64,000 nt of DNA from Hydractinia symbiolongicarpus (taxonomy: Eukaryota > Cnidaria > Hydrozoa > Anthoathecata > Hydractiniidae): NCBI RefSeq assembly GCF_029227915.1, contig NC_079881.1, positions 21,551,501 through 21,615,500 of the forward strand, written 5' to 3'. The position numbers were made by a program, and so were the translations under genes. Positions within the stretch are counted from its first letter, which is position 1; each line of letters starts with the position of its first letter. The notes beneath the pieces were generated by a model. The model saw nothing but the letters and a program-made list of their open reading frames with translations. It had not been told where the DNA came from and did no database searches. Of the stretch, positions 1 to 64,000 are shown piece after piece.

Positions 1-36
1 AAAGAAGCACGCGATGGTTGCCGCTCTTGTTGGCTT
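1..36 (+). promoter_or_regulatory. Promoter-proximal end of a unit cut by the window edge
   Basis: These bases are -36 to -1 of U4 copy 1. The PSE of this gene would lie before the window start. The stretch is identical to the corresponding part of later units. Confidence 0.8.
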
Positions 37-151
37 AGCTTTGCGCAGTGGCATTACCATAGCCAATGAGGTTTAACCGAGGCGTGGTGATTGCTAATTG
101 AAAACTTTTCCCAATATCCCGCATGACGGCGTGAAACATCGCCGGCGTTGC

Positions 152-160
152 AATATTTGG
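152..160 (+). promoter_or_regulatory. Sm protein binding site of U4 (shown for copy 1)
   Basis: AATATTTGG fits the Sm-site consensus (A, U-rich run, G) and sits between the central hairpin and the 3' terminal hairpin, as expected for Sm-class snRNAs. It lies at gene start +115 to +123 in every copy except 110 and 116, where it is one base further. I found no copy with a changed Sm site. Confidence 0.9.
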
Positions 161-161
161 A

Positions 162-177
162 GGTTCCCACTGGGACC
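162..177 (+). other. 3' terminal hairpin of U4 (shown for copy 1)
   Basis: GGTTCCCACTGGGACC folds into G-C, G-C, U-A, U-G, C-G, C-G with a four-base loop. It immediately follows the Sm site, the position of the U4 3' stem-loop. Copies 98, 105, 111 and 120 carry substitutions in it. Confidence 0.85.
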
Positions 178-179
178 AT

Positions 180-192
180 GCCTAAAAATAGA
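180..192 (+). terminator. 3'-box-like snRNA processing signal (shown for copy 1)
   Basis: GCCTAAAAATAGA contains AAAAATAGA, an exact fit to the AAARNNAGA core of the vertebrate 3' box that directs Integrator-dependent 3' end formation. The GTTT part of the consensus is only weakly represented by GCCT. It begins 3 nt after the hairpin, closer than the usual 9-19 nt, so the precursor end may differ. It recurs at gene start +143 to +155. Copies 99 and 110 have A to T in it (52520, 58395), but both still fit AAARNNAGA. Confidence 0.6.
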
Positions 193-505
193 AATCTGCT
201 GAGCTCACGAAGACTGCGTCGAATGCAAGAAAAGCGCAAAAATTCTTGTTTGCTCGCTTCCGGATGGAGAAGAACCCTTTCGTGTAAAGCAGGACACATT
301 ATGCATCGCCTCTTTTCAACGCAACTGGTCACTTCCGCAGACGGTGGGCATTCTAGGTGTAAATGGCGAATCAGTGGTGGAGACAAAGCGCTCGTTGCGG
401 CACTGGCCCTTACTCTCACGACGACAACGGACACTTGTCTTAGTTCGGCTATGAATATGAAAACTGTTTAAGTGGCACAAGGGAAAGGCGAGATGGGGAC
501 CAAAA
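193..505 (+). other. Intergenic spacer of the repeat unit (shown for unit 1)
   Basis: About 310 bp between the 3'-box-like element and the next PSE, recurring in every unit. I recognise no second RNA gene, 5S rRNA, spliced-leader sequence, other snRNA or protein gene in it. Reading frames cross it on both strands but run on into the U4 RNA or promoter. It contains the T/C marker at 404. A distal enhancer would be expected near -220 to -250 of the next gene (about 320-350 here), but I see no octamer ATGCAAAT. ATTATGCATCGC at 299-310 loosely resembles half of a ZNF143 site, which is weak evidence. Confidence 0.6.
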
Positions 506-523
506 TGCCGTAACCACAAGCAA
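506..523 (+). promoter_or_regulatory. Proximal sequence element (PSE) of a U4 gene (shown for copy 2)
   Basis: TGCCGTAACCACAAGCAA lies at -65 to -48 of U4 copy 2 and shares CCGTAAC and an A/G-rich right half with the vertebrate snRNA PSE bound by SNAPc. No convincing TATA box stands at -30 (only TTAAAG at -38 to -33), which fits a Pol II snRNA promoter of the U1-U5 kind rather than a U6 Pol III promoter. The element recurs at gene start -65 to -48 for copies 2-120. It is altered ahead of copies 48 (25076), 61 (32015) and 81 (42700). Confidence 0.75.
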
Positions 524-570
524 TCGATAACGTTAAAGAAGCACGCGATGGTTGCCGCTCTTGTTGGCTT

Positions 571-711
571 AGCTTTGCGCAGTGGCATTACCATAGCCAA
601 TGAGGTTTAACCGAGGCGTGGTGATTGCTAATTGAAAACTTTTCCCAATATCCCGCATGACGGCGTGAAACATCGCCGGCGTTGCAATATTTGGAGGTTC
701 CCACTGGGACC
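571..711 (+). ncRNA. U4: U4 snRNA, copy 2
   Basis: Consensus RNA, T-type spacer. Confidence 0.95.
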
Positions 712-1104
712 ATGCCTAAAAATAGAAATCTGCTGAGCTCACGAAGACTGCGTCGAATGCAAGAAAAGCGCAAAAATTCTTGTTTGCTCGCTTCCGGATG
801 GAGAAGAACCCTTTCGTGTAAAGCAGGACACATTATGCATCGCCTCTTTTCAACGCAACTGGTCACTTCCGCAGACGGTGGGCATTCTAGGTGTAAATGG
901 CGAATCAGTGGTGGAGACAAAGCGCTCGTTGCGGCACTGGCCCTTACTCTCACGACGACAACGGACACTTGTCTTAGTTCGGCTATGAATATGAAAACTG
1001 TTTAAGTGGCACAAGGGAAAGGCGAGATGGGGACCAAAATGCCGTAACCACAAGCAATCGATAACGTTAAAGAAGCACGCGATGGTTGCCGCTCTTGTTG
1101 GCTT

Positions 1105-1245
1105 AGCTTTGCGCAGTGGCATTACCATAGCCAATGAGGTTTAACCGAGGCGTGGTGATTGCTAATTGAAAACTTTTCCCAATATCCCGCATGACGGCGT
1201 GAAACATCGCCGGCGTTGCAATATTTGGAGGTTCCCACTGGGACC
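1105..1245 (+). ncRNA. U4: U4 snRNA, copy 3
   Basis: Consensus RNA, T-type spacer. Confidence 0.95.
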
Positions 1246-1638
1246 ATGCCTAAAAATAGAAATCTGCTGAGCTCACGAAGACTGCGTCGAATGCAAGAAA
1301 AGCGCAAAAATTCTTGTTTGCTCGCTTCCGGATGGAGAAGAACCCTTTCGTGTAAAGCAGGACACATTATGCATCGCCTCTTTTCAACGCAACTGGTCAC
1401 TTCCGCAGACGGTGGGCATTCTAGGTGTAAATGGCGAATCAGTGGTGGAGACAAAGCGCTCGTTGCGGCACTGGCCCTTACTCTCACGACGACAACGGAC
1501 ACTTGTCTTAGTTCGGCTATGAATATGAAAACTGTTTAAGTGGCACAAGGGAAAGGCGAGATGGGGACCAAAATGCCGTAACCACAAGCAATCGATAACG
1601 TTAAAGAAGCACGCGATGGTTGCCGCTCTTGTTGGCTT

Positions 1639-1779
1639 AGCTTTGCGCAGTGGCATTACCATAGCCAATGAGGTTTAACCGAGGCGTGGTGATTGCTAAT
1701 TGAAAACTTTTCCCAATATCCCGCATGACGGCGTGAAACATCGCCGGCGTTGCAATATTTGGAGGTTCCCACTGGGACC
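1639..1779 (+). ncRNA. U4: U4 snRNA, copy 4
   Basis: Consensus RNA, T-type spacer with a private C to T at 1919. Confidence 0.95.
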
Positions 1780-2172
1780 ATGCCTAAAAATAGAAATCTG
1801 CTGAGCTCACGAAGACTGCGTCGAATGCAAGAAAAGCGCAAAAATTCTTGTTTGCTCGCTTCCGGATGGAGAAGAACCCTTTCGTGTAAAGCAGGACACA
1901 TTATGCATCGCCTCTTTTTAACGCAACTGGTCACTTCCGCAGACGGTGGGCATTCTAGGTGTAAATGGCGAATCAGTGGTGGAGACAAAGCGCTCGTTGC
2001 GGCACTGGCCCTTACTCTCACGACGACAACGGACACTTGTCTTAGTTCGGCTATGAATATGAAAACTGTTTAAGTGGCACAAGGGAAAGGCGAGATGGGG
2101 ACCAAAATGCCGTAACCACAAGCAATCGATAACGTTAAAGAAGCACGCGATGGTTGCCGCTCTTGTTGGCTT

Positions 2173-2313
2173 AGCTTTGCGCAGTGGCATTACCATAGCC
2201 AATGAGGTTTAACCGAGGCGTGGTGATTGCTAATTGAAAACTTTTCCCAATATCCCGCATGACGGCGTGAAACATCGCCGGCGTTGCAATATTTGGAGGT
2301 TCCCACTGGGACC
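2173..2313 (+). ncRNA. U4: U4 snRNA, copy 5
   Basis: Consensus RNA, T-type spacer. Confidence 0.95.
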
Positions 2314-2706
2314 ATGCCTAAAAATAGAAATCTGCTGAGCTCACGAAGACTGCGTCGAATGCAAGAAAAGCGCAAAAATTCTTGTTTGCTCGCTTCCGGA
2401 TGGAGAAGAACCCTTTCGTGTAAAGCAGGACACATTATGCATCGCCTCTTTTCAACGCAACTGGTCACTTCCGCAGACGGTGGGCATTCTAGGTGTAAAT
2501 GGCGAATCAGTGGTGGAGACAAAGCGCTCGTTGCGGCACTGGCCCTTACTCTCACGACGACAACGGACACTTGTCTTAGTTCGGCTATGAATATGAAAAC
2601 TGTTTAAGTGGCACAAGGGAAAGGCGAGATGGGGACCAAAATGCCGTAACCACAAGCAATCGATAACGTTAAAGAAGCACGCGATGGTTGCCGCTCTTGT
2701 TGGCTT

Positions 2707-2847
2707 AGCTTTGCGCAGTGGCATTACCATAGCCAATGAGGTTTAACCGAGGCGTGGTGATTGCTAATTGAAAACTTTTCCCAATATCCCGCATGACGGC
2801 GTGAAACATCGCCGGCGTTGCAATATTTGGAGGTTCCCACTGGGACC
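2707..2847 (+). ncRNA. U4: U4 snRNA, copy 6
   Basis: Consensus RNA, T-type spacer. Confidence 0.95.
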
Positions 2848-3240
2848 ATGCCTAAAAATAGAAATCTGCTGAGCTCACGAAGACTGCGTCGAATGCAAGA
2901 AAAGCGCAAAAATTCTTGTTTGCTCGCTTCCGGATGGAGAAGAACCCTTTCGTGTAAAGCAGGACACATTATGCATCGCCTCTTTTCAACGCAACTGGTC
3001 ACTTCCGCAGACGGTGGGCATTCTAGGTGTAAATGGCGAATCAGTGGTGGAGACAAAGCGCTCGTTGCGGCACTGGCCCTTACTCTCACGACGACAACGG
3101 ACACTTGTCTTAGTTCGGCTATGAATATGAAAACTGTTTAAGTGGCACAAGGGAAAGGCGAGATGGGGACCAAAATGCCGTAACCACAAGCAATCGATAA
3201 CGTTAAAGAAGCACGCGATGGTTGCCGCTCTTGTTGGCTT

Positions 3241-3381
3241 AGCTTTGCGCAGTGGCATTACCATAGCCAATGAGGTTTAACCGAGGCGTGGTGATTGCTA
3301 ATTGAAAACTTTTCCCAATATCCCGCATGACGGCGTGAAACATCGCCGGCGTTGCAATATTTGGAGGTTCCCACTGGGACC
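3241..3381 (+). ncRNA. U4: U4 snRNA, copy 7
   Basis: Consensus RNA, T-type spacer. Confidence 0.95.
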
Positions 3382-3774
3382 ATGCCTAAAAATAGAAATC
3401 TGCTGAGCTCACGAAGACTGCGTCGAATGCAAGAAAAGCGCAAAAATTCTTGTTTGCTCGCTTCCGGATGGAGAAGAACCCTTTCGTGTAAAGCAGGACA
3501 CATTATGCATCGCCTCTTTTCAACGCAACTGGTCACTTCCGCAGACGGTGGGCATTCTAGGTGTAAATGGCGAATCAGTGGTGGAGACAAAGCGCTCGTT
3601 GCGGCACTGGCCCTTACTCTCACGACGACAACGGACACTTGTCTTAGTTCGGCTATGAATATGAAAACTGTTTAAGTGGCACAAGGGAAAGGCGAGATGG
3701 GGACCAAAATGCCGTAACCACAAGCAATCGATAACGTTAAAGAAGCACGCGATGGTTGCCGCTCTTGTTGGCTT

Positions 3775-3915
3775 AGCTTTGCGCAGTGGCATTACCATAG
3801 CCAATGAGGTTTAACCGAGGCGTGGTGATTGCTAATTGAAAACTTTTCCCAATATCCCGCATGACGGCGTGAAACATCGCCGGCGTTGCAATATTTGGAG
3901 GTTCCCACTGGGACC
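3775..3915 (+). ncRNA. U4: U4 snRNA, copy 8
   Basis: Consensus RNA, T-type spacer. Confidence 0.95.
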
Positions 3916-4308
3916 ATGCCTAAAAATAGAAATCTGCTGAGCTCACGAAGACTGCGTCGAATGCAAGAAAAGCGCAAAAATTCTTGTTTGCTCGCTTCCG
4001 GATGGAGAAGAACCCTTTCGTGTAAAGCAGGACACATTATGCATCGCCTCTTTTCAACGCAACTGGTCACTTCCGCAGACGGTGGGCATTCTAGGTGTAA
4101 ATGGCGAATCAGTGGTGGAGACAAAGCGCTCGTTGCGGCACTGGCCCTTACTCTCACGACGACAACGGACACTTGTCTTAGTTCGGCTATGAATATGAAA
4201 ACTGTTTAAGTGGCACAAGGGAAAGGCGAGATGGGGACCAAAATGCCGTAACCACAAGCAATCGATAACGTTAAAGAAGCACGCGATGGTTGCCGCTCTT
4301 GTTGGCTT

Positions 4309-4449
4309 AGCTTTGCGCAGTGGCATTACCATAGCCAATGAGGTTTAACCGAGGCGTGGTGATTGCTAATTGAAAACTTTTCCCAATATCCCGCATGACG
4401 GCGTGAAACATCGCCGGCGTTGCAATATTTGGAGGTTCCCACTGGGACC
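4309..4449 (+). ncRNA. U4: U4 snRNA, copy 9
   Basis: Consensus RNA, T-type spacer with G to A at 4554, shared only with copy 17. Confidence 0.95.
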
Positions 4450-4842
4450 ATGCCTAAAAATAGAAATCTGCTGAGCTCACGAAGACTGCGTCGAATGCAA
4501 GAAAAGCGCAAAAATTCTTGTTTGCTCGCTTCCGGATGGAGAAGAACCCTTTCATGTAAAGCAGGACACATTATGCATCGCCTCTTTTCAACGCAACTGG
4601 TCACTTCCGCAGACGGTGGGCATTCTAGGTGTAAATGGCGAATCAGTGGTGGAGACAAAGCGCTCGTTGCGGCACTGGCCCTTACTCTCACGACGACAAC
4701 GGACACTTGTCTTAGTTCGGCTATGAATATGAAAACTGTTTAAGTGGCACAAGGGAAAGGCGAGATGGGGACCAAAATGCCGTAACCACAAGCAATCGAT
4801 AACGTTAAAGAAGCACGCGATGGTTGCCGCTCTTGTTGGCCT

Positions 4843-4983
4843 AGCTTTGCGCAGTGGCATTACCATAGCCAATGAGGTTTAACCGAGGCGTGGTGATTGC
4901 TAATTGAAAACTTTTCCCAATATCCCGCATGACGGCGTGAAACATCGCCGGCGTTGCAATATTTGGAGGTTCCCACTGGGACC
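4843..4983 (+). ncRNA. U4: U4 snRNA, copy 10
   Basis: Consensus RNA, T-type spacer. Position -2 is C (4841), shared only with copy 18. Confidence 0.95.
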
Positions 4984-5376
4984 ATGCCTAAAAATAGAAA
5001 TCTGCTGAGCTCACGAAGACTGCGTCGAATGCAAGAAAAGCGCAAAAATTCTTGTTTGCTCGCTTCCGGATGGAGAAGAACCCTTTCGTGTAAAGCAGGA
5101 CACATTATGCATCGCCTCTTTTCAACGCAACTGGTCACTTCCGCAGACGGTGGGCATTCTAGGTGTAAATGGCGAATCAGTGGTGGAGACAAAGCGCTCG
5201 TTGCGGCACTGGCCCTTACTCTCACGACGACAACGGACACTTGTCTTAGTTCGGCTATGAATATGAAAACTGTTTAAGTGGCACAAGGGAAAGGCGAGAT
5301 GGGGACCAAAATGCCGTAACCACAAGCAATCGATAACGTTAAAGAAGCACGCGATGGTTGCCGCTCTTGTTAGCTT

Positions 5377-5517
5377 AGCTTTGCGCAGTGGCATTACCAT
5401 AGCCAATGAGGTTTAACCGAGGCGTGGTGATTGCTAATTGAAAACTTTTCCCAATATCCCGCATGACGGCGTGAAACATCGCCGGCGTTGCAATATTTGG
5501 AGGTTCCCACTGGGACC
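5377..5517 (+). ncRNA. U4: U4 snRNA, copy 11
   Basis: Consensus RNA, T-type spacer. Position -5 is A (5372), shared only with copy 19. Confidence 0.95.
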
Positions 5518-5910
5518 ATGCCTAAAAATAGAAATCTGCTGAGCTCACGAAGACTGCGTCGAATGCAAGAAAAGCGCAAAAATTCTTGTTTGCTCGCTTC
5601 CGGATGGAGAAGAACCCTTTCGTGTAAAGCAGGACACATTATGCATCGCCTCTTTTCAACGCAACTGGTCACTTCCGCAGACGGTGGGCATTCTAGGTGT
5701 AAATGGCGAATCAGTGGTGGAGACAAAGCGCTCGTTGCGGCACTGGCCCTTACTCTCACGACGACAACGGACACTTGTCTTAGTTCGGCTATGAATATGA
5801 AAACTGTTTAAGTGGCACAAGGGAAAGGCGAGATGGGGACCAAAATGCCGTAACCACAAGCAATCGATAACGTTAAAGAAGCACGCGATGGTTGCCGCTC
5901 TTGTTGGCTT

Positions 5911-6051
5911 AGCTTTGCGCAGTGGCATTACCATAGCCAATGAGGTTTAACCGAGGCGTGGTGATTGCTAATTGAAAACTTTTCCCAATATCCCGCATGA
6001 CGGCGTGAAACATCGCCGGCGTTGCAATATTTGGAGGTTCCCACTGGGACC
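5911..6051 (+). ncRNA. U4: U4 snRNA, copy 12
   Basis: Consensus RNA, T-type spacer with a private A to G at 6101. Confidence 0.95.
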
Positions 6052-6444
6052 ATGCCTAAAAATAGAAATCTGCTGAGCTCACGAAGACTGCGTCGAATGC
6101 GAGAAAAGCGCAAAAATTCTTGTTTGCTCGCTTCCGGATGGAGAAGAACCCTTTCGTGTAAAGCAGGACACATTATGCATCGCCTCTTTTCAACGCAACT
6201 GGTCACTTCCGCAGACGGTGGGCATTCTAGGTGTAAATGGCGAATCAGTGGTGGAGACAAAGCGCTCGTTGCGGCACTGGCCCTTACTCTCACGACGACA
6301 ACGGACACTTGTCTTAGTTCGGCTATGAATATGAAAACTGTTTAAGTGGCACAAGGGAAAGGCGAGATGGGGACCAAAATGCCGTAACCACAAGCAATCG
6401 ATAACGTTAAAGAAGCACGCGATGGTTGCCGCTCTTGTTGGCTT

Positions 6445-6585
6445 AGCTTTGCGCAGTGGCATTACCATAGCCAATGAGGTTTAACCGAGGCGTGGTGATT
6501 GCTAATTGAAAACTTTTCCCAATATCCCGCATGACGGCGTGAAACATCGCCGGCGTTGCAATATTTGGAGGTTCCCACTGGGACC
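6445..6585 (+). ncRNA. U4: U4 snRNA, copy 13
   Basis: Consensus RNA, T-type spacer. Confidence 0.95.
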
Positions 6586-6978
6586 ATGCCTAAAAATAGA
6601 AATCTGCTGAGCTCACGAAGACTGCGTCGAATGCAAGAAAAGCGCAAAAATTCTTGTTTGCTCGCTTCCGGATGGAGAAGAACCCTTTCGTGTAAAGCAG
6701 GACACATTATGCATCGCCTCTTTTCAACGCAACTGGTCACTTCCGCAGACGGTGGGCATTCTAGGTGTAAATGGCGAATCAGTGGTGGAGACAAAGCGCT
6801 CGTTGCGGCACTGGCCCTTACTCTCACGACGACAACGGACACTTGTCTTAGTTCGGCTATGAATATGAAAACTGTTTAAGTGGCACAAGGGAAAGGCGAG
6901 ATGGGGACCAAAATGCCGTAACCACAAGCAATCGATAACGTTAAAGAAGCACGCGATGGTTGCCGCTCTTGTTGGCTT

Positions 6979-7119
6979 AGCTTTGCGCAGTGGCATTACC
7001 ATAGCCAATGAGGTTTAACCGAGGCGTGGTGATTGCTAATTGAAAACTTTTCCCAATATCCCGCATGACGGCGTGAAACATCGCCGGCGTTGCAATATTT
7101 GGAGGTTCCCACTGGGACC
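6979..7119 (+). ncRNA. U4: U4 snRNA, copy 14
   Basis: Consensus RNA, T-type spacer. Confidence 0.95.
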
Positions 7120-7512
7120 ATGCCTAAAAATAGAAATCTGCTGAGCTCACGAAGACTGCGTCGAATGCAAGAAAAGCGCAAAAATTCTTGTTTGCTCGCT
7201 TCCGGATGGAGAAGAACCCTTTCGTGTAAAGCAGGACACATTATGCATCGCCTCTTTTCAACGCAACTGGTCACTTCCGCAGACGGTGGGCATTCTAGGT
7301 GTAAATGGCGAATCAGTGGTGGAGACAAAGCGCTCGTTGCGGCACTGGCCCTTACTCTCACGACGACAACGGACACTTGTCTTAGTTCGGCTATGAATAT
7401 GAAAACTGTTTAAGTGGCACAAGGGAAAGGCGAGATGGGGACCAAAATGCCGTAACCACAAGCAATCGATAACGTTAAAGAAGCACGCGATGGTTGCCGC
7501 TCTTGTTGGCTT

Positions 7513-7653
7513 AGCTTTGCGCAGTGGCATTACCATAGCCAATGAGATTTAACCGAGGCGTGGTGATTGCTAATTGAAAACTTTTCCCAATATCCCGCAT
7601 GACGGCGTGAAACATCGCCGGCGTTGCAATATTTGGAGGTTCCCACTGGGACC
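7513..7653 (+). ncRNA. U4: U4 snRNA, copy 15 (G35A variant)
   Basis: G35A at 7547 replaces the pair G35-C41 that closes the 5' stem-loop pentaloop beside the SNU13 kink-turn. Reduced protein binding is possible. T-type spacer. Confidence 0.9.
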
Positions 7654-8046
7654 ATGCCTAAAAATAGAAATCTGCTGAGCTCACGAAGACTGCGTCGAAT
7701 GCAAGAAAAGCGCAAAAATTCTTGTTTGCTCGCTTCCGGATGGAGAAGAACCCTTTCGTGTAAAGCAGGACACATTATGCATCGCCTCTTTTCAACGCAA
7801 CTGGTCACTTCCGCAGACGGTGGGCATTCTAGGTGTAAATGGCGAATCAGTGGTGGAGACAAAGCGCTCGTTGCGGCACTGGCCCTTACTCTCACGACGA
7901 CAACGGACACTTGTCTTAGTTCGGCTATGAATATGAAAACTGTTTAAGTGGCACAAGGGAAAGGCGAGATGGGGACCAAAATGCCGTAACCACAAGCAAT
8001 CGATAACGTTAAAGAAGCACGCGATGGTTGCCGCTCTTGTTGGCTT

Positions 8047-8187
8047 AGCTTTGCGCAGTGGCATTACCATAGCCAATGAGGTTTAACCGAGGCGTGGTGA
8101 TTGCTAATTGAAAACTTTTCCCAATATCCCGCATGACGGCGTGAAACATCGCCGGCGTTGCAATATTTGGAGGTTCCCACTGGGACC
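8047..8187 (+). ncRNA. U4: U4 snRNA, copy 16
   Basis: Consensus RNA, T-type spacer. Confidence 0.95.
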
Positions 8188-8580
8188 ATGCCTAAAAATA
8201 GAAATCTGCTGAGCTCACGAAGACTGCGTCGAATGCAAGAAAAGCGCAAAAATTCTTGTTTGCTCGCTTCCGGATGGAGAAGAACCCTTTCGTGTAAAGC
8301 AGGACACATTATGCATCGCCTCTTTTCAACGCAACTGGTCACTTCCGCAGACGGTGGGCATTCTAGGTGTAAATGGCGAATCAGTGGTGGAGACAAAGCG
8401 CTCGTTGCGGCACTGGCCCTTACTCTCACGACGACAACGGACACTTGTCTTAGTTCGGCTATGAATATGAAAACTGTTTAAGTGGCACAAGGGAAAGGCG
8501 AGATGGGGACCAAAATGCCGTAACCACAAGCAATCGATAACGTTAAAGAAGCACGCGATGGTTGCCGCTCTTGTTGGCTT

Positions 8581-8721
8581 AGCTTTGCGCAGTGGCATTA
8601 CCATAGCCAATGAGGTTTAACCGAGGCGTGGTGATTGCTAATTGAAAACTTTTCCCAATATCCCGCATGACGGCGTGAAACATCGCCGGCGTTGCAATAT
8701 TTGGAGGTTCCCACTGGGACC
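8581..8721 (+). ncRNA. U4: U4 snRNA, copy 17
   Basis: Consensus RNA, T-type spacer with G to A at 8826 (as in copy 9). Confidence 0.95.
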
Positions 8722-9114
8722 ATGCCTAAAAATAGAAATCTGCTGAGCTCACGAAGACTGCGTCGAATGCAAGAAAAGCGCAAAAATTCTTGTTTGCTCG
8801 CTTCCGGATGGAGAAGAACCCTTTCATGTAAAGCAGGACACATTATGCATCGCCTCTTTTCAACGCAACTGGTCACTTCCGCAGACGGTGGGCATTCTAG
8901 GTGTAAATGGCGAATCAGTGGTGGAGACAAAGCGCTCGTTGCGGCACTGGCCCTTACTCTCACGACGACAACGGACACTTGTCTTAGTTCGGCTATGAAT
9001 ATGAAAACTGTTTAAGTGGCACAAGGGAAAGGCGAGATGGGGACCAAAATGCCGTAACCACAAGCAATCGATAACGTTAAAGAAGCACGCGATGGTTGCC
9101 GCTCTTGTTGGCCT

Positions 9115-9255
9115 AGCTTTGCGCAGTGGCATTACCATAGCCAATGAGGTTTAACCGAGGCGTGGTGATTGCTAATTGAAAACTTTTCCCAATATCCCGC
9201 ATGACGGCGTGAAACATCGCCGGCGTTGCAATATTTGGAGGTTCCCACTGGGACC
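9115..9255 (+). ncRNA. U4: U4 snRNA, copy 18
   Basis: Consensus RNA, T-type spacer. Position -2 is C (9113, as in copy 10). Confidence 0.95.
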
Positions 9256-9648
9256 ATGCCTAAAAATAGAAATCTGCTGAGCTCACGAAGACTGCGTCGA
9301 ATGCAAGAAAAGCGCAAAAATTCTTGTTTGCTCGCTTCCGGATGGAGAAGAACCCTTTCGTGTAAAGCAGGACACATTATGCATCGCCTCTTTTCAACGC
9401 AACTGGTCACTTCCGCAGACGGTGGGCATTCTAGGTGTAAATGGCGAATCAGTGGTGGAGACAAAGCGCTCGTTGCGGCACTGGCCCTTACTCTCACGAC
9501 GACAACGGACACTTGTCTTAGTTCGGCTATGAATATGAAAACTGTTTAAGTGGCACAAGGGAAAGGCGAGATGGGGACCAAAATGCCGTAACCACAAGCA
9601 ATCGATAACGTTAAAGAAGCACGCGATGGTTGCCGCTCTTGTTAGCTT

Positions 9649-54111: not shown

Positions 54112-54504
54112 ATGCCTAAAAATAGAAATCTGCTGAGCTCACGAAGACTGCGTCGAATGCAAGAAAAGCGCAAAAATTCTTGTTTGCTCGCTTCCGGATG
54201 GAGAAGAACCCTTTCGTGTAAAGCAGGACACATTATGCATCGCCTCTTTTCAACGCAACTGGTCACTTCCGCAGACGGTGGGCATTCTAGGTGTAAATGG
54301 CGAATCAGTGGTGGAGACAAAGCGCTCGTTGCGGCACTGGCCCTTACTCTCACGACGACAACGGACACTTGTCTTAGTTCGGCTATGAATATGAAAACTG
54401 TTTAAGTGGCACAAGGGAAAGGCGAGATGGGGACCAAAATGCCGTAACCACAAGCAATCGATAACGTTAAAGAAGCACGCGATGGTTGCCGCTCTTGTTG
54501 GCTT

Positions 54505-54645
54505 AGCTTTGCGCAGTGGCATTACCATAGCCAATGAGGTTTAACCGAGGCGTGGTGATTGCTAATTGAAAACTTTTCCCAATATCCCGCATGACGGCGT
54601 GAAACATCGCCGGCGTTGCAATATTTGGAGGTTCCCACTGGGACC
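54505..54645 (+). ncRNA. U4: U4 snRNA, copy 103
   Basis: Consensus RNA, T-type spacer. Confidence 0.95.
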
Positions 54646-55038
54646 ATGCCTAAAAATAGAAATCTGCTGAGCTCACGAAGACTGCGTCGAATGCAAGAAA
54701 AGCGCAAAAATTCTTGTTTGCTCGCTTCCGGATGGAGAAGAACCCTTTCGTGTAAAGCAGGACACATTATGCATCGCCTCTTTTCAACGCAACTGGTCAC
54801 TTCCGCAGACGGTGGGCATTCTAGGTGTAAATGGCGAATCAGTGGTGGAGACAAAGCGCTCGTTGCGGCACTGGCCCTTACTCTCACGACGACAACGGAC
54901 ACTTGTCTTAGTTCGGCTATGAATATGAAAACTGTTTAAGTGGCACAAGGGAAAGGCGAGATGGGGACCAAAATGCCGTAACCACAAGCAATCGATAACG
55001 TTAAAGAAGCACGCGATGGTTGCCGCTCTTGTTGGCTT

Positions 55039-55179
55039 AGCTTTGCGCAGTGGCATTACCATAGCCAATGAGGTTTAACCGAGGCGTGGTGATTGCTAAT
55101 TGAAAACTTTTCCCAATATCCCGCATGACGGCGTGAAACATCGCCGGCGTTGCAATATTTGGAGGTTCCCACTGGGACC
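55039..55179 (+). ncRNA. U4: U4 snRNA, copy 104
   Basis: Consensus RNA, T-type spacer with a private G to T at 55476. Confidence 0.95.
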
Positions 55180-55572
55180 ATGCCTAAAAATAGAAATCTG
55201 CTGAGCTCACGAAGACTGCGTCGAATGCAAGAAAAGCGCAAAAATTCTTGTTTGCTCGCTTCCGGATGGAGAAGAACCCTTTCGTGTAAAGCAGGACACA
55301 TTATGCATCGCCTCTTTTCAACGCAACTGGTCACTTCCGCAGACGGTGGGCATTCTAGGTGTAAATGGCGAATCAGTGGTGGAGACAAAGCGCTCGTTGC
55401 GGCACTGGCCCTTACTCTCACGACGACAACGGACACTTGTCTTAGTTCGGCTATGAATATGAAAACTGTTTAAGTTGCACAAGGGAAAGGCGAGATGGGG
55501 ACCAAAATGCCGTAACCACAAGCAATCGATAACGTTAAAGAAGCACGCGATGGTTGCCGCTCTTGTTGGCTT

Positions 55573-55713
55573 AGCTTTGCGCAGTGGCATTACCATAGCC
55601 AATGAGGTTTAACCGAGGCGTGGTGATTGCTAATTGAAAACCTTTCCCAATATCCCGCATGACGGCGTGAAACATCGCCGGCGTTGCAATATTTGGAGAT
55701 TCCCACTGGGACC
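55573..55713 (+). ncRNA. U4: U4 snRNA, copy 105 (T70C, G127A)
   Basis: T70C at 55642 and G127A at 55699. The second breaks pair G127-C140 of the 3' terminal hairpin and is shared with copy 111. T-type spacer. Confidence 0.89.
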
Positions 55714-56106
55714 ATGCCTAAAAATAGAAATCTGCTGAGCTCACGAAGACTGCGTCGAATGCAAGAAAAGCGCAAAAATTCTTGTTTGCTCGCTTCCGGA
55801 TGGAGAAGAACCCTTTCGTGTAAAGCAGGACACATTATGCATCGCCTCTTTTCAACGCAACTGGTCACTTCCGCAGACGGTGGGCATTCTAGGTGTAAAT
55901 GGCGAATCAGTGGTGGAGACAAAGCGCTCGTTGCGGCACTGGCCCTTACTCTCACGACGACAACGGACACTTGTCTTAGTTCGGCTATGAATATGAAAAC
56001 TGTTTAAGTGGCACAAGGGAAAGGCGAGATGGGGACCAAAATGCCGTAACCACAAGCAATCGATAACGTTAAAGAAGCACGCGATGGTTGCCGCTCTTGT
56101 TGGCTT

Positions 56107-56247
56107 AGCTTTGCGCAGTGGCATTACCATAGCCAATGAGGTTTAACCGAGGCGTGGTGATTGCTAATTGAAAACTTTTCCCAATATCCCGCATGACGGC
56201 GTGAAACATCGCCGGCGTTGCAATATTTGGAGGTTCCCACTGGGACC
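56107..56247 (+). ncRNA. U4: U4 snRNA, copy 106
   Basis: Consensus RNA, T-type spacer. Confidence 0.95.
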
Positions 56248-56640
56248 ATGCCTAAAAATAGAAATCTGCTGAGCTCACGAAGACTGCGTCGAATGCAAGA
56301 AAAGCGCAAAAATTCTTGTTTGCTCGCTTCCGGATGGAGAAGAACCCTTTCGTGTAAAGCAGGACACATTATGCATCGCCTCTTTTCAACGCAACTGGTC
56401 ACTTCCGCAGACGGTGGGCATTCTAGGTGTAAATGGCGAATCAGTGGTGGAGACAAAGCGCTCGTTGCGGCACTGGCCCTTACTCTCACGACGACAACGG
56501 ACACTTGTCTTAGTTCGGCTATGAATATGAAAACTGTTTAAGTGGCACAAGGGAAAGGCGAGATGGGGACCAAAATGCCGTAACCACAAGCAATCGATAA
56601 CGTTAAAGAAGCACGCGATGGTTGCCGCTCTTGTTGGCTT

Positions 56641-56781
56641 AGCTTTGCGCAGTGGCATTACCATAGCCAATGAGGTTTAACCGAGGCGTGGTGATTGCTA
56701 ATTGAAAACTTTTCCCAATATCCCGCATGACGGCGTGAAACATCGCCGGCGTTGCAATATTTGGAGGTTCCCACTGGGACC
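56641..56781 (+). ncRNA. U4: U4 snRNA, copy 107
   Basis: Consensus RNA, T-type spacer. Confidence 0.95.
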
Positions 56782-57174
56782 ATGCCTAAAAATAGAAATC
56801 TGCTGAGCTCACGAAGACTGCGTCGAATGCAAGAAAAGCGCAAAAATTCTTGTTTGCTCGCTTCCGGATGGAGAAGAACCCTTTCGTGTAAAGCAGGACA
56901 CATTATGCATCGCCTCTTTTCAACGCAACTGGTCACTTCCGCAGACGGTGGGCATTCTAGGTGTAAATGGCGAATCAGTGGTGGAGACAAAGCGCTCGTT
57001 GCGGCACTGGCCCTTACTCTCACGACGACAACGGACACTTGTCTTAGTTCGGCTATGAATATGAAAACTGTTTAAGTGGCACAAGGGAAAGGCGAGATGG
57101 GGACCAAAATGCCGTAACCACAAGCAATCGATAACGTTAAAGAAGCACGCGATGGTTGCCGCTCTTGTTGGCTT

Positions 57175-57315
57175 AGCTTTGCGCAGTGGCATTACCATAG
57201 CCAATGAGGTTTAACCGAGGCGTGGTGATTGCTAATTGAAAACTTTTCCCAATATCCCGCATGACGGCGTGAAACATCGCCGGCGTTGCAATATTTGGAG
57301 GTTCCCACTGGGACC
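57175..57315 (+). ncRNA. U4: U4 snRNA, copy 108
   Basis: Consensus RNA, T-type spacer. Confidence 0.95.
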
Positions 57316-57708
57316 ATGCCTAAAAATAGAAATCTGCTGAGCTCACGAAGACTGCGTCGAATGCAAGAAAAGCGCAAAAATTCTTGTTTGCTCGCTTCCG
57401 GATGGAGAAGAACCCTTTCGTGTAAAGCAGGACACATTATGCATCGCCTCTTTTCAACGCAACTGGTCACTTCCGCAGACGGTGGGCATTCTAGGTGTAA
57501 ATGGCGAATCAGTGGTGGAGACAAAGCGCTCGTTGCGGCACTGGCCCTTACTCTCACGACGACAACGGACACTTGTCTTAGTTCGGCTATGAATATGAAA
57601 ACTGTTTAAGTGGCACAAGGGAAAGGCGAGATGGGGACCAAAATGCCGTAACCACAAGCAATCGATAACGTTAAAGAAGCACGCGATGGTTGCCGCTCTT
57701 GTTGGCTT

Positions 57709-57849
57709 AGCTTTGCGCAGTGGCATTACCATAGCCAATGAGGTTTAACCGAGGCGTGGTGATTGCTAATTGAAAACTTTTCCCAATATCCCGCATGACG
57801 GCGTGAAACATCGCCGGCGTTGCAATATTTGGAGGTTCCCACTGGGACC
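57709..57849 (+). ncRNA. U4: U4 snRNA, copy 109
   Basis: Consensus RNA, T-type spacer. Confidence 0.95.
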
Positions 57850-58242
57850 ATGCCTAAAAATAGAAATCTGCTGAGCTCACGAAGACTGCGTCGAATGCAA
57901 GAAAAGCGCAAAAATTCTTGTTTGCTCGCTTCCGGATGGAGAAGAACCCTTTCGTGTAAAGCAGGACACATTATGCATCGCCTCTTTTCAACGCAACTGG
58001 TCACTTCCGCAGACGGTGGGCATTCTAGGTGTAAATGGCGAATCAGTGGTGGAGACAAAGCGCTCGTTGCGGCACTGGCCCTTACTCTCACGACGACAAC
58101 GGACACTTGTCTTAGTTCGGCTATGAATATGAAAACTGTTTAAGTGGCACAAGGGAAAGGCGAGATGGGGACCAAAATGCCGTAACCACAAGCAATCGAT
58201 AACGTTAAAGAAGCACGCGATGGTTGCCGCTCTTGTTGGCTT

Positions 58243-58384
58243 AGCTTTGCGCAGTGGCATTACCATAGCCAATGAGGTTTAACCGAGGCGTGGTGATTGC
58301 TAATTGAAAACTTTTCCCCAATATCCCGCATGACGGCGTGAAACATCGCCGGCGTTGCAATATTTGGAGGTTCCCACTGGGACC
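58243..58384 (+). ncRNA. U4: U4 snRNA, copy 110 (one-base insertion)
   Basis: 142 nt: the CCC at nt 74-76 is CCCC (58316-58319). The 3'-box-like element has A to T at 58395, as in copy 99. T-type spacer. From here the 534-bp register is shifted by +1. Confidence 0.89.
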
Positions 58385-58777
58385 ATGCCTAAAATTAGAA
58401 ATCTGCTGAGCTCACGAAGACTGCGTCGAATGCAAGAAAAGCGCAAAAATTCTTGTTTGCTCGCTTCCGGATGGAGAAGAACCCTTTCGTGTAAAGCAGG
58501 ACACATTATGCATCGCCTCTTTTCAACGCAACTGGTCACTTCCGCAGACGGTGGGCATTCTAGGTGTAAATGGCGAATCAGTGGTGGAGACAAAGCGCTC
58601 GTTGCGGCACTGGCCCTTACTCTCACGACGACAACGGACACTTGTCTTAGTTCGGCTATGAATATGAAAACTGTTTAAGTGGCACAAGGGAAAGGCGAGA
58701 TGGGGACCAAAATGCCGTAACCACAAGCAATCGATAACGTTAAAGAAGCACGCGATGGTTGCCGCTCTTGTTGGCTT

Positions 58778-58918
58778 AGCTTTGCGCAGTGGCATTACCA
58801 TAGCCAATGAGGTTTAACCGAGGCGTGGTGATTGCTAATTGAAAACTTTTCCCAATATCCCGCATGACGGCGTGAAACATCGCCGGCGTTGCAATATTTG
58901 GAGATTCCCACTGGGACC
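58778..58918 (+). ncRNA. U4: U4 snRNA, copy 111 (G127A)
   Basis: G127A at 58904 (terminal hairpin pair lost). T-type spacer with A to G at 58974 and G to A at 59097. Confidence 0.89.
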
Positions 58919-59311
58919 ATGCCTAAAAATAGAAATCTGCTGAGCTCACGAAGACTGCGTCGAATGCAAGAAAGGCGCAAAAATTCTTGTTTGCTCGCTT
59001 CCGGATGGAGAAGAACCCTTTCGTGTAAAGCAGGACACATTATGCATCGCCTCTTTTCAACGCAACTGGTCACTTCCGCAGACGGTGGGCATTCTAAGTG
59101 TAAATGGCGAATCAGTGGTGGAGACAAAGCGCTCGTTGCGGCACTGGCCCTTACTCTCACGACGACAACGGACACTTGTCTTAGTTCGGCTATGAATATG
59201 AAAACTGTTTAAGTGGCACAAGGGAAAGGCGAGATGGGGACCAAAATGCCGTAACCACAAGCAATCGATAACGTTAAAGAAGCACGCGATGGTTGCCGCT
59301 CTTGTTGGCTT

Positions 59312-59452
59312 AGCTTTGCGCAGTGGCATTACCATAGCCAATGAGGTTTAACCGAGGCGTGGTGATTGCTAATTGAAAACTTTTCCCAATATCCCGCATG
59401 ACGGCGTGAAACATCGCCGGCGTTGCAATATTTGGAGGTTCCCACTGGGACC
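59312..59452 (+). ncRNA. U4: U4 snRNA, copy 112
   Basis: Consensus RNA, T-type spacer. Confidence 0.95.
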
Positions 59453-59845
59453 ATGCCTAAAAATAGAAATCTGCTGAGCTCACGAAGACTGCGTCGAATG
59501 CAAGAAAAGCGCAAAAATTCTTGTTTGCTCGCTTCCGGATGGAGAAGAACCCTTTCGTGTAAAGCAGGACACATTATGCATCGCCTCTTTTCAACGCAAC
59601 TGGTCACTTCCGCAGACGGTGGGCATTCTAGGTGTAAATGGCGAATCAGTGGTGGAGACAAAGCGCTCGTTGCGGCACTGGCCCTTACTCTCACGACGAC
59701 AACGGACACTTGTCTTAGTTCGGCTATGAATATGAAAACTGTTTAAGTGGCACAAGGGAAAGGCGAGATGGGGACCAAAATGCCGTAACCACAAGCAATC
59801 GATAACGTTAAAGAAGCACGCGATGGTTGCCGTTCTTGTTGGGTT

Positions 59846-59986
59846 AGCTTTGCGCAGTGGCATTACCATAGCCAATGAGGTTTAACCGAGGCGTGGTGAT
59901 TGCTAATTGAAAACTTTTCCCACTATCCCGCATGACGGCGTGAAACATCGCCGGCGTTGCAATATTTGGAGGTTCCCACTGGGACC
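59846..59986 (+). ncRNA. U4: U4 snRNA, copy 113 (A78C)
   Basis: A78C at 59923 at the end of the CCCAAT block. Positions -13 (T, 59833) and -3 (G, 59843) match copies 98 and 100. T-type spacer. Confidence 0.9.
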
Positions 59987-60379
59987 ATGCCTAAAAATAG
60001 AAATCTGCTGAGCTCACGAAGACTGCGTCGAATGCAAGAAAAGCGCAAAAATTCTTGTTTGCTCGCTTCCGGATGGAGAAGAACCCTTTCGTGTAAAGCA
60101 GGACACATTATGCATCGCCTCTTTTCAACGCAACTGGTCACTTCCGCAGACGGTGGGCATTCTAGGTGTAAATGGCGAATCAGTGGTGGAGACAAAGCGC
60201 TCGTTGCGGCACTGGCCCTTACTCTCACGACGACAACGGACACTTGTCTTAGTTCGGCTATGAATATGAAAACTGTTTAAGTGGCACAAGGGAAAGGCGA
60301 GATGGGGACCAAAATGCCGTAACCACAAGCAATCGATAACGTTAAAGAAGCACGCGATGGTTGCCGCTCTTGTTGGCTT

Positions 60380-60520
60380 AGCTTTGCGCAGTGGCATTAC
60401 CATAGCCAATGAGGTTTAACCGAGGCGTGGTGATTGCTAATTGAAAACTTTTCCCAATATCCCGCATGACGGCGTGAAACATCGCCGGCGTTGCAATATT
60501 TGGAGGTTCCCACTGGGACC
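60380..60520 (+). ncRNA. U4: U4 snRNA, copy 114
   Basis: Consensus RNA, T-type spacer. Confidence 0.95.
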
Positions 60521-60913
60521 ATGCCTAAAAATAGAAATCTGCTGAGCTCACGAAGACTGCGTCGAATGCAAGAAAAGCGCAAAAATTCTTGTTTGCTCGC
60601 TTCCGGATGGAGAAGAACCCTTTCGTGTAAAGCAGGACACATTATGCATCGCCTCTTTTCAACGCAACTGGTCACTTCCGCAGACGGTGGGCATTCTAGG
60701 TGTAAATGGCGAATCAGTGGTGGAGACAAAGCGCTCGTTGCGGCACTGGCCCTTACTCTCACGACGACAACGGACACTTGTCTTAGTTCGGCTATGAATA
60801 TGAAAACTGTTTAAGTGGCACAAGGGAAAGGCGAGATGGGGACCAAAATGCCGTAACCACAAGCAATCGATAACGTTAAAGAAGCACGCGATGGTTGCCG
60901 CTCTTGTTGGCTT

Positions 60914-61054
60914 AGCTTTGCGCAGTGGCATTACCATAGCCAATGAGGTTTAACCGAGGCGTGGTGATTGCTAATTGAAAACTTTTCCCAATATCCCGCA
61001 TGACGGCGTGAAACATCGCCGGCGTTGCAATATTTGGAGGTTCCCACTGGGACC
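60914..61054 (+). ncRNA. U4: U4 snRNA, copy 115
   Basis: Consensus RNA, T-type spacer. Confidence 0.95.
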
Positions 61055-61447
61055 ATGCCTAAAAATAGAAATCTGCTGAGCTCACGAAGACTGCGTCGAA
61101 TGCAAGAAAAGCGCAAAAATTCTTGTTTGCTCGCTTCCGGATGGAGAAGAACCCTTTCGTGTAAAGCAGGACACATTATGCATCGCCTCTTTTCAACGCA
61201 ACTGGTCACTTCCGCAGACGGTGGGCATTCTAGGTGTAAATGGCGAATCAGTGGTGGAGACAAAGCGCTCGTTGCGGCACTGGCCCTTACTCTCACGACG
61301 ACAACGGACACTTGTCTTAGTTCGGCTATGAATATGAAAACTGTTTAAGTGGCACAAGGGAAAGGCGAGATGGGGACCAAAATGCCGTAACCACAAGCAA
61401 TCGATAACGTTAAAGAAGCACGCGATGGTTGCCGCTCTTGTTGGCTT

Positions 61448-61589
61448 AGCTTTGCGCAGTGGCATTACCATAGCCAATGAGGTTTAACCGAGGCGTGGTG
61501 ATTGCTAATTGAAAACTTTTCCCCAATATCCCGCATGACGGCGTGAAACATCGCCGGCGTTGCAATATTTGGAGGTTCCCACTGGGACC
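61448..61589 (+). ncRNA. U4: U4 snRNA, copy 116 (one-base insertion)
   Basis: 142 nt: CCCC at 61521-61524, the same insertion as copy 110. T-type spacer with G to A at 61895 (as in copy 54). The register is shifted by +2 from here. Confidence 0.89.
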
Positions 61590-61982
61590 ATGCCTAAAAA
61601 TAGAAATCTGCTGAGCTCACGAAGACTGCGTCGAATGCAAGAAAAGCGCAAAAATTCTTGTTTGCTCGCTTCCGGATGGAGAAGAACCCTTTCGTGTAAA
61701 GCAGGACACATTATGCATCGCCTCTTTTCAACGCAACTGGTCACTTCCGCAGACGGTGGGCATTCTAGGTGTAAATGGCGAATCAGTGGTGGAGACAAAG
61801 CGCTCGTTGCGGCACTGGCCCTTACTCTCACGACGACAACGGACACTTGTCTTAGTTCGGCTATGAATATGAAAACTGTTTAAGTGGCACAAGGAAAAGG
61901 CGAGATGGGGACCAAAATGCCGTAACCACAAGCAATCGATAACGTTAAAGAAGCACGCGATGGTTGCCGCTCTTGTTGGCTT

Positions 61983-62123
61983 AGCTTTGCGCAGTGGCAT
62001 TACCATAGCCAATGAGGTTTAACCGAGGCGTGGTGATTGCTAATTGAAAACTTTTCCCAATATCCCGCATGACGGCGTGAAACATCGCCGGCGTTGCAAT
62101 ATTTGGAGGTTCCCACTGGGACC
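61983..62123 (+). ncRNA. U4: U4 snRNA, copy 117
   Basis: Consensus RNA, T-type spacer. Confidence 0.95.
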
Positions 62124-62516
62124 ATGCCTAAAAATAGAAATCTGCTGAGCTCACGAAGACTGCGTCGAATGCAAGAAAAGCGCAAAAATTCTTGTTTGCT
62201 CGCTTCCGGATGGAGAAGAACCCTTTCGTGTAAAGCAGGACACATTATGCATCGCCTCTTTTCAACGCAACTGGTCACTTCCGCAGACGGTGGGCATTCT
62301 AGGTGTAAATGGCGAATCAGTGGTGGAGACAAAGCGCTCGTTGCGGCACTGGCCCTTACTCTCACGACGACAACGGACACTTGTCTTAGTTCGGCTATGA
62401 ATATGAAAACTGTTTAAGTGGCACAAGGGAAAGGCGAGATGGGGACCAAAATGCCGTAACCACAAGCAATCGATAACGTTAAAGAAGCACGCGATGGTTG
62501 CCGCTCTTGTTGGCTT

Positions 62517-62657
62517 AGCTTTGCGCAGTGGCATTACCATAGCCAATGAGGTTTAACCGAGGCGTGGTGATTGCTAATTGAAAACTTTTCCCAATATCCC
62601 GCATGACGGCGTGAAACATCGCCGGCGTTGCAATATTTGGAGGTTCCCACTGGGACC
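62517..62657 (+). ncRNA. U4: U4 snRNA, copy 118
   Basis: Consensus RNA, T-type spacer. Confidence 0.95.
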
Positions 62658-63050
62658 ATGCCTAAAAATAGAAATCTGCTGAGCTCACGAAGACTGCGTC
62701 GAATGCAAGAAAAGCGCAAAAATTCTTGTTTGCTCGCTTCCGGATGGAGAAGAACCCTTTCGTGTAAAGCAGGACACATTATGCATCGCCTCTTTTCAAC
62801 GCAACTGGTCACTTCCGCAGACGGTGGGCATTCTAGGTGTAAATGGCGAATCAGTGGTGGAGACAAAGCGCTCGTTGCGGCACTGGCCCTTACTCTCACG
62901 ACGACAACGGACACTTGTCTTAGTTCGGCTATGAATATGAAAACTGTTTAAGTGGCACAAGGGAAAGGCGAGATGGGGACCAAAATGCCGTAACCACAAG
63001 CAATCGATAACGTTAAAGAAGCACGCGATGGTTGCCGCTCTTGTTGGCTT

Positions 63051-63191
63051 AGCTTTGCGCAGTGGCATTACCATAGCCAATGAGGTTTAACCGAGGCGTG
63101 GTGATTGCTAATTGAAAACTTTTCCCAATATCCCGCATGACGGCGTGAAACATCGCCGGCGTTGCAATATTTGGAGGTTCCCACTGGGACC
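63051..63191 (+). ncRNA. U4: U4 snRNA, copy 119
   Basis: Consensus RNA, T-type spacer with a private A to G at 63345. Confidence 0.95.
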
Positions 63192-63584
63192 ATGCCTAAA
63201 AATAGAAATCTGCTGAGCTCACGAAGACTGCGTCGAATGCAAGAAAAGCGCAAAAATTCTTGTTTGCTCGCTTCCGGATGGAGAAGAACCCTTTCGTGTA
63301 AAGCAGGACACATTATGCATCGCCTCTTTTCAACGCAACTGGTCGCTTCCGCAGACGGTGGGCATTCTAGGTGTAAATGGCGAATCAGTGGTGGAGACAA
63401 AGCGCTCGTTGCGGCACTGGCCCTTACTCTCACGACGACAACGGACACTTGTCTTAGTTCGGCTATGAATATGAAAACTGTTTAAGTGGCACAAGGGAAA
63501 GGCGAGATGGGGACCAAAATGCCGTAACCACAAGCAATCGATAACGTTAAAGAAGCACGCGATGGTTGCCGCTCTTGTTGGGTT

Positions 63585-63725
63585 AGCTTTGCGCAGTGGC
63601 ATTACCATAGCCAATGAGGTTTAACCGAGGCGTGGTGATTGCTAATTGAAAACTTTTCCCAATATCCCGCATGACGGCGTGAAACATCGCTGGCGTTGCA
63701 ATATTTGGAGGTTCCCACTTGGACC
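63585..63725 (+). ncRNA. U4: U4 snRNA, copy 120 (C107T, G136T)
   Basis: C107T at 63691 (wobble) and G136T at 63720, which removes the loop-closing pair C131-G136 of the terminal hairpin. Position -3 is G (63582). The T-type spacer has C to A at 63883 and is cut by the window end. Confidence 0.9.
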
Positions 63726-64000
63726 ATGCCTAAAAATAGAAATCTGCTGAGCTCACGAAGACTGCGTCGAATGCAAGAAAAGCGCAAAAATTCTTGTTTG
63801 CTCGCTTCCGGATGGAGAAGAACCCTTTCGTGTAAAGCAGGACACATTATGCATCGCCTCTTTTCAACGCAACTGGTCACTTACGCAGACGGTGGGCATT
63901 CTAGGTGTAAATGGCGAATCAGTGGTGGAGACAAAGCGCTCGTTGCGGCACTGGCCCTTACTCTCACGACGACAACGGACACTTGTCTTAGTTCGGCTAT
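63726..64000 (+). other. Spacer of the last unit, cut by the window end
   Basis: The 3'-box-like element and most of the spacer follow copy 120 and stop at the window edge still in register with the repeat, so the array continues beyond 64000. Confidence 0.9.

Follow-up and report, generated by a model that had tools for sequence, protein, structure and literature searches.

Tandem arrays of snRNA genes are known from sea urchin and Xenopus, in which U1 and U2, and not U4, are arrayed, and the human RNU2 locus, as far as it has been described, is likewise a series of tandem snRNA genes, which are U2 genes. The closest described systems belong to Hydractinia. A histone/5S/U1/U2 repeat has been reported for H. 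echinata, and for Hydractinia a unit of approximately 5.85 kb and an estimated 700 or more clusters per haplotype are given (PMC5011920); in the genome analysed here, a unit on contig C9 holding U2, U1, 5S, a tRNA and five histones has the same make-up, which is among the features that suggest a Hydractinia species, probably H. symbiolongicarpus. This repeat resembles the U4 array of the present study in placing snRNA genes in a high-copy tandem unit, but it is mixed and approximately 5.85 kb long, whereas only U4 was found in the U4 unit of 0.534 kb. Moreover, tandem ncRNA arrays, similar in layout to the U4 array, were published for Hydractinia by Schnitzler et al. 2024 (PMC11067881), whose H. 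symbiolongicarpus assembly consisted of 4,840 pieces totalling 406.7 Mb, according to a table in PMC10411563. The passage on these arrays names U1, U2, U5 and U6 as arrayed, and U4, although present, is the one major snRNA absent from that list.

More distant systems share single features with the U4 array. The seven separate U1-U4 gene pairs of Arabidopsis place U4 in repeated small clusters, with no long U4-only array in the account given (PMC545797), and U4 of Perkinsus also lies in repeated small-RNA clusters, but mixed with spliced-leader RNA and U2 (PMC3101222). In the tapeworm Caryophyllaeus laticeps, a repeat of U1 snDNA initially came to notice as a putative satellite (PMC12274263), which concerns U1 and another phylum. 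No U4-only array is named in the titles or abstract openings examined among open-licence papers, and the terms 'Hydractinia' and 'U4 snRNA' together gave no match there. A sequence-only reading of the DNA studied here had presented a U4-only array of this density and size as apparently new. The array is no isolated oddity, since in the same genome U1 and U2 belong to a tandem unit with histone and 5S genes, and ncRNA arrays have been published for Hydractinia, U4 being unnamed among them. The U4 array would be an addition to the known Hydractinia tandem snRNA arrays, judged by the list in the text of PMC11067881.

Results

The window, which is the whole stretch of DNA analysed (64,000 nt, position 1 corresponding to C7:21,551,501), is a pure head-to-tail array of U4 snRNA genes, and all of it (1..64000, plus strand) forms an interior part of a larger tandem array, designated array 1, whose U4 units measure 534 bp. 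An Rfam scan of the window at the gathering threshold gave 120 matches to any family, and all 120 were to RF00015 (U4), on the plus strand, covering model positions 1-138 of 138 with scores of 111.8-120.5 bits against a cut-off of 46. The E-value of each match, approximately 1e-24 to 1e-27, excludes a chance origin. The spacing of the U4 anchors was 534 bp in 115 of 118 cases, 535 bp in two and 1068 bp in one, where one anchor was missed. ARAGORN found no tRNA gene in the window, and a 1.3-kb sample searched with Rfam at E<=10 revealed no 5S or other ncRNA linked to U4 within the unit, the only three non-U4 matches being at chance level with 13.3 bits each. The 120 co-oriented U4 genes, the 534-bp period and the lack of another gene type had all been claimed from the sequence, with an RF00015 scan proposed as a check, and they are borne out by these results. 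The same is true of the claim that the array exceeds the window, because neither end falls inside it: array 1 starts at C7:21,523,932, and its right edge lies between C7:21,788,000 and 21,790,000. Tandem Repeats Finder returned no row for the array because the longest period that it handles is 500.

The first complete U4 gene (Rfam model 1-138) was matched at 37..175 of the plus strand and is followed by 119 further genes, the last at 63585-63723. Its 5' end (37..54, plus strand), which we take to be the part forming stem II with U6, appears by eye complementary to a U6-derived fragment in L030; searches of the assembly for a complete canonical U6 gene yielded none. An Sm-site-like AATATTTGG at 152..160 (plus strand), aligned to Rfam AAUUUUUGg, is presumably the Sm site. 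The Rfam alignments of two units contain the 5' stem-loop, the 3' stem-loop and the terminal hairpin, with one non-standard pair each, and the MFE fold of one unit contains the 5' stem-loop and the terminal hairpin, the latter of which suggests a predicted RNA end near position 178. The fold is only mildly better than those of shuffled sequences (z -1.58), 11 of 200 shuffles folding as well. Directly past the gene, AAAAATAGA (184..192, plus strand) is a candidate 3' box that fits the core consensus AAARNNAGA; no match to this core occurs within 60 bases after U1 or U2. The remaining spacer of the first unit (193..513, plus strand) is without an Rfam match. It is followed by CCACAAGCA (514..522, plus strand), which lies at -57 relative to the next U4 gene (at 571) and is a candidate proximal sequence element. 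These 9 bases are common to U4 (-57), U1 (-57) and U2 (-54) of the same genome, and a shared word longer than 6 among the three upstream regions appeared in 0 of 2000 mononucleotide shuffles.

Array 1 was read through in C7:21,512,001-21,788,000, in which 494 U4 5' ends were counted and up to the end of which, at least, the array extends. Like the published Hydractinia ncRNA arrays, with their tens to hundreds of copies, it repeats a near-identical gene and spacer several hundred times. A 38-nt U4 pattern allowing up to 3 mismatches, which overlooks genes carrying more than 3 changes, gave 490 forward and 363 reverse matches genome-wide, and 488 of the 490 forward matches fall within the stretch read. 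A genome-wide U4 search scored 42 of 32,923 first-look candidates, so that a different U4 gene may exist elsewhere.

Variation was analysed in 469 units of array 1, which comprise 228 distinct unit sequences (haplotypes). The gene (positions 37-178) is without any change in 344 of them, and the share of unchanged genes falls from 46/47 in the leftmost block to 30/47, 20/47 and 29/46 in the last three. Divergence increases along the array (Spearman 0.70), the mean pairwise difference within blocks rising from 0.03% upstream to approximately 1% downstream. The upstream end carries 24C, 34C and 263G, which are absent from the second array described below, and shows almost no variation, while units near the right edge have 95-98% identity to the main unit; among 21 of the latter, 14 have gene changes, which hit the Sm-like site in 3 and the U6-pairing end in 5. 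From the left through the middle to the right third of the units, rare variants (<=3 copies) per kb numbered 0.54, 1.08 and 2.87 in the gene and 0.54, 0.96 and 2.36 in the spacer. Because these densities are equal, no purifying selection on single gene copies is visible among the 469 units. Variants present in at least 20 of the 469 copies were found once in the gene and five times in the spacer, and this spacer bias was not significant when four spacer variants common in the second array were added (1 vs 9, Fisher p 0.29). Within CCACAAGCA, the 469 units hold 3 variant types of one copy each, and the region 510-534, which was picked after the fact, holds 7 variant types in 25 bp vs 0.55 per bp in the spacer. 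Variants of the C-to-T kind are not in excess at CpG sites (29/70, vs 72/191 other C/G sites), so the array bears no mark of methylated silencing. Furthermore, strings of several different unit haplotypes are repeated at separations between a few and about sixteen units; examples are a string of 6 units with a lag of 14 and strings of 4 units with lags of 5 and 8.

A second, inverted array (array 2) was seen through probes on C7 at 33.0-33.2 Mb and ends in an N run (at C7:33,204,353), which is possibly a masked stretch instead of a gap. Its sampled positions span 193.7 kb from first to last, a length that fits the 363 reverse pattern matches, of which those within the probes were located. The flanks of the two arrays are colinear, as alignments of 263 bp (94.3% identity) and 940 bp (96.7%) show, and array 2 is therefore probably the other allele or a duplicate and not an independent locus. 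Among 26 sampled array-2 units, 493G was present in 26 and 528C in 20; neither occurs in the 469 units of array 1. Probes past array 2 up to the contig end met other repeated sequence.

Discussion

We consider it likely that the array ranks among the main genomic sources of U4 in a Hydractinia species, probably H. symbiolongicarpus, being one locus of about 500 tandem, individually promoted genes in the haplotype read that are kept uniform by exchange. With a candidate proximal sequence element and a 3'-box-like signal in each, the 534-bp units could in principle serve RNA polymerase II as normal snRNA genes, and the genes look usable given the promoter-like element that they share with U1 and U2. 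A bulk supply of U4, as had been proposed, would fit this shared element and the unchanged state of most gene copies. Short-range unequal exchange may keep the array uniform, as the recurring strings suggest, and renewal would be strongest at the upstream end, from which copies would age and change downstream, consistent with the observed gradient. Observations that speak against this reading include the lack of a counterpart of the 3'-box motif after U1 or U2, the small advantage of the U4 RNA fold over shuffles, and the lack of a sign of selection on single gene copies. The earlier reading is upheld for the U4 identity, orientation, purity and size of the array, but it missed the other snRNA arrays of the same genome. 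Provided that the species assignment is right, U4 is arrayed in hundreds of copies, like U1 and U2, which closes the one gap in the published Hydractinia list, and tandem amplification may set the dosage of all major snRNAs in this animal, which has adult pluripotent stem cells.

The alternative that a satellite DNA captured a U4 gene, so that recombination amplified it, most copies are silent and U4 is supplied by a few copies or by another gene, is rather unlikely. The unit is indeed satellite-like, as had been claimed, being head-to-tail and homogenised with a 534-bp period and no selection seen on single copies, and a satellite seeded by a U4 gene gains some support from the equal density of rare variants in gene and spacer and from the gene changes in most right-edge units, which reach the Sm-like site and the U6-pairing end. 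However, the retention of CCACAAGCA among the 469 units, the few variant types in the region 510-534 (chosen after inspection) and the lack of CpG decay argue against this alternative, and on the forward strand the U4 sequence is not widely dispersed, because only 2 of its 490 pattern copies lie outside the stretch read. It is far less probable still that the assembler inflated a short array. The leftmost 50 units of array 1 are almost identical, as such an error would have them, but the longest run of identical units is 16 (8.5 kb), which is shorter than the read N50 of 13.2 kb given for H. symbiolongicarpus (PMC10411563), apparently for the assembly analysed here. This run length and the 228 haplotypes make an expansion of a few units unlikely, the steady divergence gradient and the absence of Ns from the window and the array-1 stretches read also oppose it, and the expansion was rejected on the number of haplotypes. 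The near-identical leftmost units could nevertheless be miscounted by the assembler.

The placement of both arrays on C7 and the variants 493G and 528C, private to array 2, would suit two U4 loci lying 11 Mb apart on one chromosome, the product of a segmental duplication in inverted orientation, which would give more than 850 copies per haploid genome. This arrangement is rather unlikely in view of the flanks, which are colinear at 94-97%, and of the N run that closes array 2 and the other repeats beyond it, as expected for an ill-placed haplotype contig, although a duplication could also show these features. A total of 853 haploid copies in two independent loci was put aside once the flanks proved colinear. 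We regard array 2 as most likely allelic to array 1 and left at the scaffold end.

Theories of concerted evolution expect a uniform centre and decay at both edges of an array. Because array 1 has a readable divergence gradient, these theories become testable on an assembled natural array whose freshest part is one of its edges. A more specific and doubtful proposal is that the array is a one-way conveyor, in which new identical genes arise upstream, old ones drift downstream and decay, and position equals age. In array 2, the two genes furthest downstream carry no changes, which counts against it. The evidence from array 2 on this point consists of sampled stretches: 528C was found in 31 of 31 motif matches across eleven of them, and near the downstream end the array-1 state 528T was found in both exact motif matches of one further stretch (L061) and in 5 of 6 in another (L052), which is a hint, judged at site 528, that array 2 shares the upstream-to-downstream polarity.

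Extent and composition of the U4 array

The window was built of 534-bp units, with a single + strand U4 snRNA gene in each. An Rfam search, as suggested by the sequence-only reading, returned 120 matches of any family at gathering threshold, all 120 of which were full-length U4 (RF00015; 111.8 to 120.5 bits) on the + strand, which confirmed the claim that only U4 genes, in one orientation, are present. ARAGORN predicted no tRNA in the window, and no non-U4 Rfam match above chance was obtained in a 1.3-kb sample of it. Moreover, one identical sequence was common to 50 of the 118 anchored intervals in the window.

The extent of this array (array 1) was established by joint analysis of fetched stretches around the window on C7 (contig NC_079881.1). 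On the left, the array begins abruptly at C7:21,523,932, in mid-spacer (position 200 of the 534-bp main unit, in which U4 occupies 37-178). The array continues at C7:21,788,000 and its right edge lies before 21,790,001, where probe L033 starts, in which no unit match was found. The window therefore contains no array end, as had also been proposed. A total of 494 U4 5' ends were located up to C7:21,788,000, and reading frames matching the PROPPIN, GILT and saposin-A domains of Pfam lie upstream of the left edge.

In the main text of Schnitzler et al. 2024 (PMC11067881), many ncRNA genes are described in tandem arrays in two Hydractinia species, and arrayed U1, U2, U5 and U6 are named, that is, four of the five major snRNAs, with U4 omitted there. 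The U4 array thus removes the exception among the arrayed major snRNAs of Hydractinia. No U4-only array was named in the titles and abstract openings from our literature search. U4 is known in small mixed clusters in Arabidopsis, as U1-U4 pairs (excerpts of PMC545797), and in Perkinsus, with SL RNA and U2 (excerpts of PMC3101222).

Divergence gradient and turnover

The second point of interest is a divergence gradient along array 1. The first units at the left edge were the main unit with no differences, and relative to the leftmost sequence the first block of 25 units averaged 0.08 differences per unit, rising to 6.0 for the final block of 19. A reference-free measure, pairwise differences within blocks, rose from 0.03% to about 1%. 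Moreover, the gene was unchanged in 46/47 units of the first block and in 30/47, 20/47 and 29/46 units of the last three. Among 21 additional units from C7:21,775,267 on, seven had unchanged genes, and changes affected the Sm-like site in three units and the U6-pairing end in five.

Tandem arrays are expected to have a uniform centre and two decayed edges, whereas one edge of array 1 is its freshest part. The base states 24T, 34G and 263A of the unit were common to the right part of array 1 and to an inverted U4 array at C7 ~33.0-33.2 Mb (array 2), which makes it probable that the derived states are those at the left end of array 1. Near the downstream end of array 2, 528T was found, with 528C in the remaining sampled stretches; the two outermost genes at that end, however, were unchanged. 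Furthermore, haplotype strings recurred in array 1 at lags of 5, 8 and 14 units, which suggests unequal exchange over short distances or duplication of blocks. From one genome, the gradient may be read either as a lasting polarity or as what a single recent amplification left behind.

The inverted array and the genome-wide count

In the whole assembly (480.9 Mb, 76 contigs), a search with a 38-nt U4 pattern, allowing at most three mismatches, gave 490 forward and 363 reverse matches, and those listed were all on C7. Of the forward matches, 488 fell inside the analysed stretch of array 1 and two had no assigned location. An Rfam-based genome search scored 42 of 32,923 U4 candidates, so a divergent U4 gene elsewhere could have escaped it.

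Array 2, known through probes and not as a continuous sequence, starts at C7:33,010,623 and was present in every probe until an N run beginning at 33,204,353; this run may reflect a gap in the assembly or masking. The span of 193.7 kb agrees with the 363 reverse matches. The right flank of array 1 and the left flank of array 2 were colinear in reversed order, with identities of 94.3% over 263 bp and 96.7% over 940 bp. Array 2 is most likely the other allele of the array 1 locus, put at the scaffold end; a segmental duplication is the less likely alternative. Given the allelic reading, 853 (490 + 363) was not taken as the haploid copy number.

Two more U4 copies (C7:33,003,675-33,004,511) were separated from array 2 by ~6.1 kb of other sequence at C7:33,004,512-33,010,622 (end of probe L061 and L052:1-5622), all but 200 bp of which lay in the stretches covered. 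This interruption enters at unit position ~490, one of its ends carries an ATT repeat, and ~33 bp of the unit are absent near it. At the outer border of array 2 (L061:281-370), fragments of a decayed older spacer (~82-84% identity) lie beside two complete genes identical to the main U4 sequence. Past the N run, probes contained repeated sequence of another sort, and short N runs occurred in some of them. L055 and L056 (C7:33,210,001-33,221,200) carried 62-base N runs, two of them 617 bp apart, within repeated sequence. A 203-bp satellite occupied L050, at the extreme contig end, and similar sequence occurred in L057, L058 and L049; these four probes span C7:33,230,001 to the contig end.

Gene signals and variation

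The word CCACAAGCA was found upstream of U4 (-57), U1 (-57) and U2 (-54), and when these three upstream stretches of 150 bp were put through 2000 mononucleotide shuffles, the longest common word had a length of 6. This shared word is the strongest indication that the snRNA-gene promoter of this animal is present in the U4 units. Downstream of U4, AAAAATAGA matches the 3'-box core consensus; no comparable match was found downstream of U1 or U2.

The gene was unchanged in 344 of 469 units of array 1. Rare-variant density was no lower in the gene than in the spacer in every third of the array, which counts against selection on single copies; redundancy predicts the same outcome, so this comparison does not tell a gene array from a satellite.

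Other snRNA genes

A first look for U2 gave 110,725 candidates, and all 46 that were scored matched U2 and lay on C9 at 7.1-12.3 Mb, many ~5.85 kb apart. The 5.85-kb unit in L059 (C9) contained U2, U1 and 5S rRNA together with a tRNA and genes for five histones, putatively H2A, H2B, H4, H3 and H1, a composition also described in H. echinata (PMC5011920). The U2 matches, which occur in both orientations, cover a region of about 5 Mb, and this indicates inversions inside the block.

No complete canonical U6 was found; a 32-nt core with up to two mismatches gave 0 matches in the whole assembly. The Rfam search (48 scored of 42,524 candidates) gave four weak matches, in L029 (C5), L030 (C13), L031 (C10) and L032 (C12), of which one, a divergent sequence, was above the cut-off. 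U6 arrays are reported in Hydractinia in the main text of PMC11067881, and U6 may be missing or diverged in this assembly. In L030:1501-1700 and on the reverse strand of L032, U6 3' parts are fused to tRNA-like sequence after a T-rich stretch; by eye, these fusions resemble chimeric retrocopies of U6 and a tRNA-derived SINE.
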